Shown here one piece after another: positions 39,971-46,664 of a stretch of DNA of 64,000 nucleotides (positions are counted from its first letter, which is position 1; each line of letters begins with the position of its first letter). A program made the position numbers and the translations under genes. Below the pieces are notes generated by a model. It ran no database searches and was not told the origin of the DNA. It worked only from the letters and a program-made list of their open reading frames with translations. This DNA comes from Candidatus Chryseopegocella kryptomonas (GTDB lineage Bacteria; Bacteroidota; Ignavibacteria; Kryptoniales; Kryptoniaceae), in NCBI RefSeq assembly GCF_001536065.1, contig NZ_CZVW01000001.1, positions 62,001 to 126,000 of the forward strand, in the 5' to 3' direction.

Positions 39971-40103
39971 CCGCTGTATTGCATTTTTTTGTGAATATGT
40001 TTAAATTTTAATCAGTTTTAGAGAAGGTTAGCAAAGTCGGTATAAAGTTATTTAATTTTTGCGAATTTTTGAAGAATGAAATAATCAAAATTTCAACTTG
40101 GAA

Positions 40104-43100
40104 ATGGATTTAAAAGATAATTTTGAGATAAGCACGGGTTCAAAAGTTTTGCTTACTTTGTTTTCGGTTCTTGTTGGAGTTTTGATTTCAGATTTAATTG
40201 CATTTATTTTTTTCTGGTTTTACAATGCGGGACAAATTGAAGTTTTTTCTTTTCTTCTTCCAACTTTTATCGGCGTGATTTTGGGGATTGTGTTTTCTTT
40301 TTCAAGGTTATCGCTTGAAAAAAGAGTGATTGAAATTGAAAAATTCTGGCAATCTGCATTTCAATCTTATACGAACGGAATAATTCTGACCGATTTAACG
40401 GGGAAAATAAAATATGCGAATGATTACGCCTGCAAGTTTCACGGCTACACTCTTGATGAAATTAGAGAATTTTACATTTTTGATCTTGTAATGCCCGAAT
40501 TTATAGAGGTTGTCCGTGAATACATCAGAGACATAGTGGATAACGAAGAGAAAGAAGTTATTGAGATTGGTTTTCTTTCTAAAGATGGGAGCGTAAGATA
40601 TGCTCAACTTGGGGGGAGATTGATAAAGTATAGAAAGAGTGAATTCATACAATTTGTGGAAGTTGACACAACGGAGAAGAGAAGATTTGAGGATGAGTTA
40701 ATTGCAGCGGAGAGAAAATATAGAGAACTTTTTGAGAACGCTGTCATTGGAGTTTACAGATCAACGCCAGATGGGAAAATTATTGATGTGAATCCAGCAT
40801 TTGTTAAGATGCTTGGGGCGAAAAATAAGTATGAGATTTTGCAGAAAAATGCTTCGGAGTTTTATCCAAATCCAGAAGATAGATTAAGGTTTATAAGAGC
40901 GCTTGAGATTTCTGATTCTATTTCAAATTTTGAGAACAAATTAAAACGGCTTGATGGAAAAGAAATATATGTTCGTGAGCATGTCAGAGCAGTAAGAGAT
41001 TCGCTTGGAAATGTTGTCTTTTACGAGGGAATGATAGAAGACATCACAGAGCAAAAAATTTGGGAGGAGCGACGTAAAGAGTCAGAGGCAAAATACAGGA
41101 CGCTTGTTGAAAGTTCACTTGTTGGGACATATATATTTCAAGATGGAAGATTTAAGTTTGTGAGCGGACAACTTGCTTCAATTTTTGGATTTAAAGATAG
41201 CGAAATTCTTGACACACGAACAATTCTTGAACTTGTTCATCCTGACGATAGACGAAGGGTTATGGAAAAATTTGCTGAAGGATTGAGCGGAAAAATGCCC
41301 GTTTCTAATTTCTCTTTCAAAGTTATAAAGAAAAATGGTGAAATAGCGTGGGTTGAAGTTTTGAATAATCTCATAACTTATGAAGGTAAACCTGCAATTT
41401 TGGGGACTATGCTTGATATAACCGATAGAGTTAGGGCGGAACAAAGAAACAGAATTTTATCAAATCTTTTGCTTAATCTAAGTGATGCGGTCGTCATAAC
41501 AGATGAAAACGCAAATATACTTGAAGTCAACGATGCATTTTGCAAGATAACAGGTTATTCAAAAGATGAGGTAATTGGAAAAAATCCACGAATTTTGAAG
41601 TCGGGACTTCACGATTTGGAGTTTTATAAAAATATGTGGGATTCAATACTTACGAAGGGGCATTGGTCTGGTGAAATAATTAACAAACGAAAAAATGGCG
41701 AACTTTATTTCGCATTTCTTTCAATATCATCCGTGAAAGATGAACTTCACGGCGTCACATATTATCTCGGGATTCAGACGGATATAACAGAAAAGAAAAA
41801 AACCGAGGAGCAAATAAGATATCAAGCAAACTTACTTGAAAATGTGAATGACGCTATCATCGCAGCTGATCTTAATTTCAGAATCACGGCTTGGAATAAA
41901 GCAGCTGAAAAAATGTATGGTTATAAAGCAGAGGAAGTTATAGGCAAAGAGATAAGTGAGGTTGTTCCTGTTGAATTTCCAAATTTAACAAGGGAAGAGG
42001 TTCGTAAGATATTGCGTGAAAAAGGTTTTTGGCAGGGTGAGGCAATTCATTATAATAGATTTGGTGAAAAAATTTATGTTAGTTCATCTCTTTCCATCAT
42101 TCGTGATTCAAGGGGCAATCCAATAGGAACGGTTGGTATAAATCGTGATATTACAGAGCAGAAGAAAGCGGAAGAAAAACTAAAATTGTATGCGGAACAA
42201 CTTGAAATTGCAAACGCTCAACTTCAGGAATTAAATAAGCTAAAAAGTGAGTTTCTTGCAAACACATCACACGAGTTGAGAACACCTTTAAATTCAATCA
42301 TTGGATTTTTGAATCTCATAAAAGAAGGACTTTACGAAAATCACGATGAGATGATGAAATTTGTTGACAATGCTCTTGTCAGTGCAAAACATCTTTTGAG
42401 CATTATAAACGATATACTTGACATAGCAAAAATTGAGGCGGGTAAACTTGAACTTAACATTGAAGATGTTGAAGTTTCAGAACTTTTATATGAGGTCTGG
42501 ACACTTTCCCATGTCCAAGCGGAGCAGAAAAAACTTGACTACAAAATTATTTACCCTGAAAAACAAGTTTATGTCAAGGGAGATAGAAACAGATTGAAAC
42601 AAATTTTGCTTAATTTGATCGGCAATTCAATTAAGTTCACGCATAAAGGTGGAATTACAGTAAAAGTTGATGTCTTTGACGATAAAGGATTTTGTCAATT
42701 TACTGTTTCAGATACGGGCATTGGCATTGCAAAGGAAAAGCAGGCAAAACTTTTCCAGAAATTTGTTCAGGCGGATGGAACGACGACAAGAAAATATGGT
42801 GGCACAGGGCTTGGACTTGCGATTACGAAAAGTTTGGTTGAACTTATGGGCGGTGTCATTGAACTTTACAGTGAGGGCGAGGGCAAAGGAACAACTGTGA
42901 CATTTACAATTCCACTTTCAGAAATTTCTTACGGGGAAAAAGTTGAAATTGAACATGGGAAAATTTACGGCGAAAATGGATTGCTTGTCCTTGCGGTTGA
43001 TGATGATGCAAGGTTTGCGGATTTTTTGAAGAGTTTTCTTGTCAAGAACGATTTTAAATTTGTGTGGGCAAATAACGCCGACGATGGATGGCTCTATATC

Positions 43101-43766
43101 CAAAGATATAAGCCAGATGTTTTGATAGTTGATTACGCTATTCCGCATAAAGCTTCGGCTGAATTAAAGAATGGATTTGATCTTGTTTTAAAGGTTTACG
43201 ATTCACCAGAATTTAAAAATTTGCCAATTATAATTTTAACAGGTCATTCTCAAAAAGTCAGAGAACTTTTGAAACTTTCATTTATAAATTTCCAGCCCAG
43301 CGTTCTTGAAAAACCAATTGAGCCAGGACATCTTTTGAATTTGCTGAAACAATTTGTCAAAGAAAAGGATGAAATTAGAATTTTGCTTGCCGATGACGAT
43401 GAAAATGTTAAAGTTTATTTGAGAAAAATTTTGCCAGCACAATATGAAATTGATTACGCAAGGAACGGTCGTGAAGCTATTGAGAAGATAAAAATGGGAA
43501 ATTATGATATTCTTTTGCTTGACCTTATGATGCCAGAACTAAATGGATACGATGTTATAAGAGAGTTGAGGTTAGGGAAACTTGCACCTGATCTTCCAAT
43601 CCTTGTCATCACAAATTATCCAGAGCCAGCTACCGAAGAAGAAAGAGAACTCTTGTCAAAGAGCATGGGGATAATCGTGGTTGATAAATCTGAATTAAAT
43701 CAGGATCCACGAAGGTTGATTGATTTGATTAAATCCCATCTTAAAATAAATCGTGAGGTGAGCTGA
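40104..43766 (+). CDS. membrane-anchored hybrid sensor histidine kinase with five PAS and two receiver domains
   Basis: A 1220-residue kinase. Two membrane helices (15-39 and 48-67) are followed by five PAS domains (about 80-195, 200-325, 328-450, 452-575, 578-695), several ending in the PAC-type DITE/DITEQKK block. After a short coiled coil come the HisKA box SHELRTPLNSIIGF (His near 723), and the HATPase with NLIGNSIKF, DTGIGI and GGTGLGLAI. Two C-terminal receivers follow, with phospho-Asp in LIVDYAIP (about 1010) and LLLDLMMPELNG (about 1138). It should sense intracellular signals through PAS ligands and pass phosphate internally. The next gene (a receiver) starts on its stop codon (TGATG). 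Confidence 0.92.
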   Translation: MDLKDNFEISTGSKVLLTLFSVLVGVLISDLIAFIFFWFYNAGQIEVFSFLLPTFIGVILGIVFSFSRLSLEKRVIEIEKFWQSAFQSYTNGIILTDLTGKIKYANDYACKFHGYTLDEIREFYIFDLVMPEFIEVVREYIRDIVDNEEKEVIEIGFLSKDGSVRYAQLGGRLIKYRKSEFIQFVEVDTTEKRRFEDELIAAERKYRELFENAVIGVYRSTPDGKIIDVNPAFVKMLGAKNKYEILQKNASEFYPNPEDRLRFIRALEISDSISNFENKLKRLDGKEIYVREHVRAVRDSLGNVVFYEGMIEDITEQKIWEERRKESEAKYRTLVESSLVGTYIFQDGRFKFVSGQLASIFGFKDSEILDTRTILELVHPDDRRRVMEKFAEGLSGKMPVSNFSFKVIKKNGEIAWVEVLNNLITYEGKPAILGTMLDITDRVRAEQRNRILSNLLLNLSDAVVITDENANILEVNDAFCKITGYSKDEVIGKNPRILKSGLHDLEFYKNMWDSILTKGHWSGEIINKRKNGELYFAFLSISSVKDELHGVTYYLGIQTDITEKKKTEEQIRYQANLLENVNDAIIAADLNFRITAWNKAAEKMYGYKAEEVIGKEISEVVPVEFPNLTREEVRKILREKGFWQGEAIHYNRFGEKIYVSSSLSIIRDSRGNPIGTVGINRDITEQKKAEEKLKLYAEQLEIANAQLQELNKLKSEFLANTSHELRTPLNSIIGFLNLIKEGLYENHDEMMKFVDNALVSAKHLLSIINDILDIAKIEAGKLELNIEDVEVSELLYEVWTLSHVQAEQKKLDYKIIYPEKQVYVKGDRNRLKQILLNLIGNSIKFTHKGGITVKVDVFDDKGFCQFTVSDTGIGIAKEKQAKLFQKFVQADGTTTRKYGGTGLGLAITKSLVELMGGVIELYSEGEGKGTTVTFTIPLSEISYGEKVEIEHGKIYGENGLLVLAVDDDARFADFLKSFLVKNDFKFVWANNADDGWLYIQRYKPDVLIVDYAIPHKASAELKNGFDLVLKVYDSPEFKNLPIIILTGHSQKVRELLKLSFINFQPSVLEKPIEPGHLLNLLKQFVKEKDEIRILLADDDENVKVYLRKILPAQYEIDYARNGREAIEKIKMGNYDILLLDLMMPELNGYDVIRELRLGKLAPDLPILVITNYPEPATEEERELLSKSMGIIVVDKSELNQDPRRLIDLIKSHLKINREVS

Positions 43767-44176
43767 TGGCTCACATACTTGTGGTTGAAGATGATAAATT
43801 AACAGCCCAATTATTTGAGATAATTTTGAAAAGGAAAGGAGGTTTTGATGTAACTGTAACAGATGATGGTGAAAAAATCATTGAACTTTTAAACTCTGGA
43901 AAAGTTGATCTCATAATTATGGATGTTTCTCTTTCTGGAACATTTGTGAATGGTGTTCAAGTTGATGGATTAAAACTTTCAAAGATGATAAAAGAAAACG
44001 AGGCGACTTCAAAAATTCCGATCATACTTGCAACCGCACACGCAATGCGTGGGGACGCTGAAAGATTTCTCTCCGAAAGCAAAGCGGACGATTACATCTC
44101 AAAACCAATCACAGATCACGACTCTTTTATTCAAAAAATCAAAGGATATCTGAATGAACCAAGAGACAAAGGGTAA
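43766..44176 (+). CDS. single-domain response regulator (CheY-like)
   Basis: A 136-residue stand-alone receiver domain. Acidic pocket residues Asp9-Asp10 are in VVEDDK, the phospho-Asp is Asp53 in LIIMDVSLSG, the switch Ala/Thr region is ILATAHAMRGD, and the Lys is in DYISKPI. It lacks an output domain, so it likely serves as a phosphate shuttle between the flanking kinases and the REC-DHp protein. Its loop after the phosphorylated Asp (GTFVNGVQVDGLKL) is longer than usual. It overlaps the upstream kinase stop by one base and the next gene by 23 bp. Confidence 0.9.
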   Translation: MAHILVVEDDKLTAQLFEIILKRKGGFDVTVTDDGEKIIELLNSGKVDLIIMDVSLSGTFVNGVQVDGLKLSKMIKENEATSKIPIILATAHAMRGDAERFLSESKADDYISKPITDHDSFIQKIKGYLNEPRDKG

Positions 44177-44825
44177 AGTTTTAATTGTTGAAGATGATAT
44201 AAATTATGCTGAGATACTAAAACGAGTGATAGCGAAAAATGGATATGAAGTAAGTATCGCTTACGATGGAAATGATGGATACGACAAATCAATTGAATGG
44301 AAACCAGATGTTATGATAGTTGACTGGATGATGCCGGGGATGAACGGTGTTGAACTTGTTAAGAAGATTAAAGAACATCCAGAGATGAAATTTTGCTATG
44401 TCATAATGTTAACAGCAAGGGTTGAAACCGAAGATAAAATTACTGGTCTTGAAGCCGGAGCAGATGATTTTATAACTAAGCCAGTTGATTTCGGAGAACT
44501 TATGGCACGGATAAAGGTGGGCTTTAGAATGAAAAATCTTCAATCTGAAATTGCCGAACTTCAACACGAAGTTGCACTCCTTGAAATGGCAAGAACCCTC
44601 GGACACGAGATCAACAATCCATTGAATATAATTTACCTCGCTCTTGAACTTATAAATCGCTCGCTAAAAGAAAACGACATTGAAAAAGTAAAAGAAAACT
44701 TAAATCGCATTTATCAAGCATCAGACAGGATAAAACAAATAGTCCACAAACTCATCTCGCTTAAAAAACCCGCCTTTAAAAATTATGTCAATGGCAAACC
44801 AATGCTTGACCTTGATAAGGAATGA
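44154..44825 (+). CDS. receiver domain fused to a DHp (HisKA-type) helix pair without ATPase domain
   Basis: A 223-residue protein. Residues 8-125 are a canonical receiver (Asp14-Asp15 in VEDD, phospho-Asp57 in MIVDWMMPGMNG, Thr87, Lys109 in FITKPVD). A coiled-coil linker (126-145) leads to ARTLGHEINNPLNIIYLALE at 147-166, a histidine-kinase H-box with His151 in HEIN context, and a second helix to about 205. The ATP-binding domain is absent; the protein ends 18 residues after the DHp helices with a normal stop. It cannot autophosphorylate as a kinase. It could act as a phosphotransfer protein (Spo0B-like), as a phosphatase, or as a substrate for another kinase's ATPase domain. Confidence 0.85.
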   Translation: MNQETKGKVLIVEDDINYAEILKRVIAKNGYEVSIAYDGNDGYDKSIEWKPDVMIVDWMMPGMNGVELVKKIKEHPEMKFCYVIMLTARVETEDKITGLEAGADDFITKPVDFGELMARIKVGFRMKNLQSEIAELQHEVALLEMARTLGHEINNPLNIIYLALELINRSLKENDIEKVKENLNRIYQASDRIKQIVHKLISLKKPAFKNYVNGKPMLDLDKE

Positions 44826-44950: not shown

Positions 44951-44997
44951 TATTGAAATTTATTTTTTGTGAATTTCAAACAATAAGAGCGCTTGAA

Positions 44998-45387
44998 ATG
45001 GCGTCTGTAGTGTGCAAAATAATGGTTTATACAAGTGATATGAAATTTGCCGAGAGAATAAGCAAAATTTTCAGAGGCGATGGTTATATGTTGAAAGTTT
45101 TTGAATTGTTTTCGGAAGTTGTTGAGACATTGCAAAGGGAACTTTACGATGTTTTGATAGTTGAAACTGAATTTATGAGTGAGATGAGCGATTTGCTTAA
45201 AATTGCGGATAACATTTTGCTTGGCATTCCGATAATAGTTGCAAGTGGGGAGAATGGTTTCAGGGTTGAAAATGGAAATTATTCAAAATTTTATTTCATA
45301 AATAAATTTGCCAGCGAAGAGGAGTGGAAAAATGTCATCTGGCTTGCGATAAGTGAAAATTATGTAATAACAAACGGAGGGAATTAA
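44998..45387 (+). CDS. degenerate receiver-like protein
   Basis: A 129-residue protein with the size and strand/helix rhythm of a response-regulator receiver: MVYTSDMKFAERISKIFRGD, then ELYDVLIVETEFMSEMSDLL. At the position of the phospho-acceptor (end of strand 3, usually LIVD), the residue is Glu (LIVETE), and the first acidic pair is missing. It is probably a pseudo-receiver fixed in an active-like state or a protein-interaction module. It lies three bases before the second kinase gene, so co-expression is expected. Start choice is uncertain: ATG at 44998 or 45022; both lack a clear ribosome-binding site. The family call rests on pattern only. Confidence 0.6.
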   Translation: MASVVCKIMVYTSDMKFAERISKIFRGDGYMLKVFELFSEVVETLQRELYDVLIVETEFMSEMSDLLKIADNILLGIPIIVASGENGFRVENGNYSKFYFINKFASEEEWKNVIWLAISENYVITNGGN

Positions 45388-45389
45388 CA

Positions 45390-46664
45390 ATGATTTCAAT
45401 CTTGATACAAAACATAATTTTTGCTGTGCTTGTTGCAGGGCTTGGCATTGTGTTAAAAATTTTAAACGGCAAAATAAAAAGTTTGTGGAAAATTTTTATC
45501 GGCGTTGTCTTCCTTTGGCTTTCATCAATTTATATCATTGCATACGGATTTAATTTGCTATCAGGTCTTACGATGATTTTTGGTGTAATTGTAAGTTTAT
45601 CGGGTTTAATTTCACTTTCAAGCGAAGTTAAATTATTGGGCGATGGTGAAAGTGTTAACTCAATTGAGTCGGCGTTAAATTCAATTTTGAAAAAGACAGA
45701 AGCAGAAGGAGGTGCAATTTTCTACATTGATCAAGATAAAAACTCTGAATGTATTCTTAAATCTGGCAAAGTTGAAGATGGATGCGTAATGTTAATTCAG
45801 CCAATTTATTCTGATGAAAATTTGACAGGTTATTTGATGCTCTTTGGAAATAAGCCATTTGTTGGTTTAAAAAGCGATGTAATTGATGGCGAAATTAACT
45901 TGATAAAACTTTACATTGAAAATCGCAGGTTAAATGACAAAATTAAATCCATACAAAAATACATTCATCTCATTACGCACGAATTGAGAAAACCTTTAAC
46001 CAGTATAATTGGATTTTCGGAAATTTTAAGAGATGAGTTTAAAAATCTTTCAGAGAAGGATGTTGTTGAATTTATCTCAAACATAAAACAATCTGGCGAT
46101 GTAATGCTTACGACTTTGAGGTATTTAAGTGAGATAACAGAGATTGAACTCGGTGAATATAAGTTGAAATATGAAAAGTTTAATCCTGTTGATGAGGTTA
46201 AAAAAGTGGTTGGTTATTTTTCGGGTGAGATTGAAAAGAAAAATTTAAATGTTGAGTTTGATGTTGAAAATAATTTTGAGATTGAAGCGGATAGAAAAAA
46301 GTTCAATGAAATACTTTATCAACTTGTTTCAAATGCTGTTAAGTTTTCTCGTGATAACACCACGATTAAAATTGTTTTGCACAGGAGCGGAAATTATGTT
46401 GAGTTGAGGGTTAAAGATGAAGGAACAGGGATAAGGAGTGAGGATTTTGATAAAATTTTTAAGCCATTCCCAAAAATAAAAACTCATTTAAGTGGCTCTG
46501 GACTTGGGCTTGTGCTCGTAAAACTTCTCGTTGAGTTACACGGTGGGGAGGTTGATTTTGAAAGTGAATTTGGAAAGGGAAGTGAGTTTAGGGTTTTACT
46601 TCCATTGAAGTGTGATTCAAGGGCGAGTGAATTGGTAAAGGAAAAAGTTCTTGAGTTTAATTAA
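45390..46664 (+). CDS. membrane sensor histidine kinase
   Basis: A 424-residue kinase. Two or three N-terminal membrane helices (about 4-24, 32-53, 57-76) are followed by a GAF-like input region (about 90-180). The H-box is LITHELRKPLTSIIGFSEIL (His near 196). The ATPase motifs are QLVSNAVKFS (N box), DEGTGI (G1) and SGSGLGLVLV (G2). It has no receiver domain, so it must pass phosphate to a separate protein, most simply the neighbouring receivers. GGAGGG precedes the ATG. The gene is followed by a terminator, closing the signalling island. The stimulus is unknown. Confidence 0.9.
   Translation: MISILIQNIIFAVLVAGLGIVLKILNGKIKSLWKIFIGVVFLWLSSIYIIAYGFNLLSGLTMIFGVIVSLSGLISLSSEVKLLGDGESVNSIESALNSILKKTEAEGGAIFYIDQDKNSECILKSGKVEDGCVMLIQPIYSDENLTGYLMLFGNKPFVGLKSDVIDGEINLIKLYIENRRLNDKIKSIQKYIHLITHELRKPLTSIIGFSEILRDEFKNLSEKDVVEFISNIKQSGDVMLTTLRYLSEITEIELGEYKLKYEKFNPVDEVKKVVGYFSGEIEKKNLNVEFDVENNFEIEADRKKFNEILYQLVSNAVKFSRDNTTIKIVLHRSGNYVELRVKDEGTGIRSEDFDKIFKPFPKIKTHLSGSGLGLVLVKLLVELHGGEVDFESEFGKGSEFRVLLPLKCDSRASELVKEKVLEFN

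Follow-up and report, generated by a model that had tools for sequence, protein, structure and literature searches.

What could a protein do that carries the receiver and phosphoacceptor hairpin of a histidine kinase but not its ATPase (CA) domain? The locus examined here, in a window that comprises the whole stretch of 64,000 nucleotides analysed and in which all genes discussed below lie on the forward strand, encodes such a protein, hereafter REC-DHp, in an open reading frame for 223 residues that starts at an ATG (44154..44825). Pfam assigns residues 9-121 (44178..44516) to the receiver family (PF00072, Response_reg, E 9.9e-29) and residues 142-205 (44577..44768) to the HisKA/DHp hairpin (PF00512, E 6.6e-12), both above the curated cut-offs, in line with a preliminary description that had recognised a complete receiver and a complete HisKA H-box and second helix, followed by the end of the protein. 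The receiver includes Asp57 (44322-44324) and Lys109, and the H-box, HEINNPL, provides His151 (44604-44606), Glu152 (44607-44609) and Asn155 (44616-44618); the residue numbers given earlier for Asp57 and His151 were exact. The protein thus has the H-x-x-x-[TN] motif (H151, N155) and keeps both the acid that follows the histidine (H+1) and the Asn at H+4. No HATPase family and no Hpt fold (PF01627) is matched at E <= 1, results that rule out an HPt or other output fold, no PAS or GAF domain is found by Pfam between the receiver and HisKA, and the roughly 18 residues beyond the HisKA match hold no CA domain, even a degenerate one.

An AlphaFold2 model of the monomer, built from a 30-row alignment (mean pLDDT 91, pTM 0.74), has a receiver fold, a predicted single, continuous helix of 60 residues (113-172; 44490..44669) that merges receiver α5, the signalling helix and DHp α1, and a second helix at residues 176-209; it agrees with Pfam that the N-terminal receiver is joined to the DHp by a helix. 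The spacer from Lys109 to His151, mostly made up of this long predicted helix, measures 42 residues, as it does in all 29 aligned relatives and, by script, in 99 of 110 sequences (9 unparsed, 2 different). The 18-residue C-terminal tail (206-223; 44769..44822), in which Tyr211 and Met217 are conserved, follows the motif P-x4-Y-x5-M-[IL]-[DK]-[LI], and pLDDT falls below 50 at residues 208-220. A fold search returned mainly receivers among its best 50 matches and gave no mechanistic information. By analogy with known HisKA proteins, REC-DHp would dimerise through its DHp and would be unable to phosphorylate itself.

A decayed gene or an assembly error is so improbable an explanation that it can be set aside, and nothing spoke in its favour. 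Only 127 or 172 bases, depending on whether the next frame starts at 44953 or 44998, separate the stop codon from that frame, and a CA domain therefore cannot fit downstream. A frameshift concealing a HATPase domain, a concern raised in the preliminary description, is excluded because the seven proteins of the genus (window included) stop at the same point, 71-72 residues past the His, with lengths of 222-223 residues if the start codon chosen for the window protein is assumed for all. Indeed, near-full-length orthologues with this build are found in 7/7 genomes of the genus, at 75-83% identity, and in 13/13 genomes of the order's other family, at 42-47%, with more in the class.

Further afield, a profile of the DHp and tail matched 92 of 395 genomes in a search of the phylum; 28 of these were matched solely by long frames (631-1329 residues) that are ordinary kinases, and short frames occur in 64/395. 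The same profile gave short-frame matches in 69 of 197 genomes of the class, a sample that overlaps with that of the phylum, and a single match in the window's own genome, which is 78.5% complete. We examined 142 CA-less matches, consisting of 110 distinct sequences and 32 remaining listed short-frame matches that were not de-duplicated, one of which (L303) stops early, 47 residues past its His. A sequence scan of named genomes yielded mostly ordinary OmpR-type receivers, along with one distant CA-less relative of 247 residues (L080) with the H-box AHELGQPL and the tail. In a quick tree, with no root inferred and long branches flagged, one branch (SH-aLRT 98) sets all 110 short proteins apart, as a single loss of the CA domain within this set of rows could have produced. 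The best explanation is that REC-DHp derives from a receiver-controlled histidine kinase by loss of the ATPase domain, with the portion that deals with response regulators retained.

The residues that these proteins keep argue for function. Asp14, Asp57 and Lys109 are invariant in the 110 aligned rows and Thr87 is present in 106 (Ser in 4), a conservation that is not built in, because the search model starts after Lys109-Pro110. Of the 142 matches, 140 retain the acceptor His, and H+4 is an amide in every one (Asn in 99, Gln in 43). The earlier suggestion of selection for a kinase-less REC-DHp is therefore strongly borne out by a single family, found in many genomes, that keeps these residues. 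Its further statement that the HEIN box is conserved holds in the window's order and some other branches and fails elsewhere: H+1 is Glu in 96 of the 142, Lys in 30, Gln in 12, Asn in 3 and Arg in 1, and thus non-acidic in 46, with Glu throughout the members from families f1 and f2, including the window protein (f1, f2, f4, f10, f12, f13, f17, f19 and f21 being our codes for the families of the genomes compared). In 74 HisKA kinases with more than 170 residues after the His, taken from the same fetched loci, H+1 is Glu or Asp without exception (non-acidic in 0/74), although these were found with a seed acidic at H+1 in all its rows, a mild bias; it is likewise acidic in 19/19 REC-DHp-CA control kinases from the same genomes, a set that may overlap with the 74. 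A Fisher test of H+1 in the 110 against the 74 gives p 6e-12 but ignores relatedness, so the at least 5 changes of H+1 state counted on the quick tree, with its caution about long branches, are the fairer measure. In a motility-linked clade of 33 rows, H+1 is non-acidic in 32 and H+4 is Asn in all. H-boxes of f10/f12 relatives include HKINN and HQMNN.

These two positions have been separated experimentally. According to the available text of Willett and Kirby (PMC3510030), the H+1 acid is needed for kinase and not for phosphatase activity in CrdS, HK853, HK1190 and HK4262, and the H+4 Thr or Asn only for phosphatase activity in the same four HisKA proteins; CrdS E372Q, with the very residue found at H+1 in 12 of our rows, retains phosphatase activity. 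The combination of a non-acidic H+1 with an amide at H+4 therefore makes it firm for the family that it is not an autokinase, and carries moderate weight for a phosphatase in the Asn members and less in the Gln group; for the window protein and its f1/f2 relatives the H+1 argument is indirect, since they keep Glu. Overall, a phosphatase under the control of a switch, or a relay of phosphate, accounts for the residues better than a defunct kinase does. The drift at H+1 also bears on the notion that a CA domain acts in trans, with the 424-residue kinase or the hybrid kinase of the locus phosphorylating His151 directly, as in a split kinase. The Glu kept by the window protein and the kinases encoded beside it would suit such an arrangement, but the non-acidic H+1 of 46 of the 142 relatives should block phosphorylation of this kind, and we hold it to be very improbable.

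Which partners, then, does the locus offer? Upstream lies a hybrid kinase of 1222 residues (1220 from ATG; 40098..43766) in which Pfam finds PAS domains, HisKA, HATPase and two C-terminal receivers. It overlaps by 1 nt a lone receiver of 136 residues (43766..44176; PF00072, E 6.5e-22), a likely partner or substrate of REC-DHp, which in turn overlaps the REC-DHp gene by 23 nt, the three genes forming a chain of end-to-start overlaps that is followed by a gap. After the gap come a receiver-like protein of 144 residues (44953..45387), whose matches to KaiA_N (E 0.0018) and Response_reg (E 0.17) are both below cut-offs, and a histidine kinase of 424 residues with HisKA and HATPase by Pfam (45390..46664), syntenic in the genus. 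The former is listed from a TTG at 44953, and its orthologues align from about residue 18; its true start is probably the ATG at 44998, and we consider it a likely pseudo-receiver because it is kept in the genus despite its weak receiver match. All four neighbours are thus as first described, and the order of the five genes is kept across the genus where contigs reach (in G002 it runs over two contigs, and in G005 it begins at the lone receiver).

The idea that REC-DHp links two input branches is not borne out by its relatives: among the contexts read, the genes for the 144- and 424-residue proteins form a separate group restricted to the window's genus. The lone receiver adjoins REC-DHp in 16/16 contexts of f1, f10, f12 and f19, and in 0/21 contexts of f2, f13, f17, f21 and more distant families. 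In 11 of 13 f2 loci the adjoining gene is a kinase whose best match is the core of the hybrid kinase; f2 genomes encode nothing close to the lone receiver, the best matches (36-38% identity, in 4/13 genomes) being placed elsewhere. From this distribution, the association of REC-DHp with either the lone receiver (in f1, f10, f12 and f19) or a sister of the hybrid-kinase core (in f2) is older than the genus-specific group.

The module is reused with different partners, as its contexts differ. A MotA gene stands beside the pair of lone receiver and REC-DHp in all six f10/f19 contexts read (by Pfam for L054, by BLAST for L208-L211, and as a MotA_N match inside L053), and in f12 the pair is accompanied by a sigma-70-family factor and an HDOD protein. 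A second CA-less group, with Gln at H+4 (HEIKQPL, HKIKQPL; L064-L067, L220 and others), lies near secretin genes in both loci run through Pfam (L064, L065). The gene of a third, type C (SHE[ILV]NNPL), immediately precedes that of a sigma-54 response regulator in 6/6 f1/f2 loci read (L202-L207); the window's own genome, which is incomplete, yielded no type C protein. As a separate observation, two f12 loci encode a protein of about 430 residues between the HDOD protein and the lone receiver (L051:7388-8686, L213:3989-5296), whose layout recalls a degenerate kinase; the one tested, from L051, had no Pfam match at E <= 0.01.

Taking residues and contexts together, we favour, with confidence somewhat short of even, a receiver-gated DHp with response-regulator phosphatase activity as its chief function and the adjacent lone receiver as its probable target. 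Three further points speak for it: the H+4 amide in 142/142, including two f4 relatives that have Asp in place of the His and keep Asn at H+4; the adjacency of the lone receiver in all f1, f10, f12 and f19 contexts; and a receiver-controlled layout like that of LvrB. The f4 pair (L221:4510-5178, DRIGNPI, and L313:538-1191, DKIGNPI) is also an experiment of nature that sets phosphotransfer against phosphatase activity. On the other hand, the His, kept in 140/142, is a mere aid in CrdS, where H371A only weakens the phosphatase (2.6 min vs 0.7 min), and its retention hints at phosphotransfer; the Gln at H+4 of 43 members counts against the reading, given that CrdS N375Q had no measurable phosphatase activity; and although the DHp alone suffices for phosphatase activity in EnvZ and NtrB, the CA domain greatly raises it (all from the accessible part of PMC3510030). 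The lack of a close lone-receiver copy in f2 weighs against it as well.

The strongest warning comes from PhyT. This HRxxN protein with a degenerate CA domain had earlier passed for a phosphatase, but in the available text of its study it displayed none of that activity and turned out to be a phosphotransferase, carrying phosphate from a single-domain receiver to PhyR (PMC5898713). By this precedent, REC-DHp could be the phosphotransfer hub first proposed: His151 would take phosphate from the lone receiver or a receiver of the hybrid kinase and pass it to another, gated or fed by the N-terminal receiver, as in PhyT, Spo0B and ChpT. The near-universal His, the lone receiver encoded next door and, in f1/f2, the sigma-54 regulator as a natural acceptor for type C all suit such a relay. 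So does Lys at H+1, because HPt domains often carry a basic residue there. Against it, the window operon holds no output regulator, transfer does not need an invariant amide at H+4, the His is Asp in the two f4 relatives, and transfer within the protein looks hard, as the long predicted helix parts its own receiver from His151. We see in this relay a real if lesser possibility, which follows closely behind the phosphatase.

The tail raises another alternative. Tyr is conserved in 107 and Met in 97 of the 110 aligned rows, counts that are partly by construction, because the search model included the tail. This Tyr-x5-Met peptide appears to stand in the place of the CA domain, and its length and hydrophobic-acid-hydrophobic pattern make it plausible that it is a relic of the DHp-CA linker. 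Separately, the residue at Tyr+8 tracks the H+1 state, being Asp in 17 and Asn in 3 of the 20 rows from the window's order, and Lys in 28 of the 32 motility-clade rows with a non-acidic H+1. A conserved peptide to which no further domain is joined could indicate a scaffold, in which the DHp only dimerises the receiver or forms mixed dimers that inhibit the neighbouring kinase, the H-box is structural and the tail recruits a target. The kinase next to the gene in 11/13 f2 loci and the presence of Pro156 in 110/110 and Leu157 in 109/110 aligned rows are consistent with this, yet in a scaffold the surface-exposed, active-site His and H+4 amide should drift, as the neighbouring H+1 does. We therefore find it improbable.

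If REC-DHp is a receiver-gated phosphatase, Asp57 would be phosphorylated by a kinase, for which the hybrid kinase of the operon is the likeliest candidate, and the register of the long helix would change as a result. The DHp face formed by His151 and Asn155 would then bind some phosphorylated receiver, with the adjacent protein of 136 residues as the prime candidate, and Asn155 would place the water for removal of the phosphate, with reverse transfer to His151 possible as a side reaction and the tail peptide docking the partner or the DHp. The main output would be controlled dephosphorylation, serving as a feed-forward or adaptation brake. More broadly, one may picture a family of aspartyl-phosphate phosphatases born from CA loss, in which one phosphorylated receiver switches a DHp that acts on another and a C-terminal docking peptide has newly taken the place of the CA domain, and which is used beside flagellar motor genes (in a CheZ/CheX-like role), beside secretin or pilus-like genes and in the hybrid-kinase operon of the window; on sequence and context, this wider picture is possible though rather unlikely. 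The family offers a natural experiment, with a kinase-only residue kept by some members and dropped by others on a His and amide face that is nearly always kept, and the conserved small receiver is an obvious candidate substrate in several families. The choice between phosphatase and relay is therefore directly testable with three small proteins.

HisKA proteins without HATPase are usually annotated as kinases or dismissed as incomplete. Spo0B and ChpT, which like REC-DHp are DHp phosphotransferases or candidates for that role without a working kinase domain, retain a CA domain in degenerate form and lack an N-terminal receiver. The same holds for PhyT, which works with a single-domain receiver, as REC-DHp may, but is of the HisKA_2/HWE type (PMC5898713, as far as its text is available). 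NtrB, EnvZ and CrdS share the H-x-x-x-N chemistry, for which the isolated DHp is enough, but are bifunctional kinases (available text of PMC3510030). LvrB, the second-best solved-structure match to the DHp part (E 0.0009), has the same succession of receiver, signalling helix and HisKA with HEINNPL but, in the accessible part of its report, possesses a CA domain and autophosphorylates (PMC13269768). P2CS and genome surveys list HATPase-less REC-HisKA proteins as incomplete kinases (PMC4618731 and PMC9953108, in the portions available), and the literature searched, with most subscription papers outside reach, contained no study of the present bacterial family. The closest counterparts are the archaeal REC-(PAS/GAF)n-HisKA response regulators, e.g. 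AF_1472, which likewise combine a receiver and a HisKA domain that keeps its His with the lack of HATPase; the accessible text names roles as phosphoacceptor, phosphotransfer protein or phosphatase for HisKA proteins without HATPase, none of them studied there (PMC5847659). The archaeal proteins differ in the PAS/GAF domains placed in between, where the REC-DHp family has a helix of fixed length; this family also has a C-terminal peptide and has lost the H+1 acid in part of its members. A class with receiver and HisKA and no HATPase is thus already in print for archaea, and the bacterial REC-DHp family is a new variety of it.
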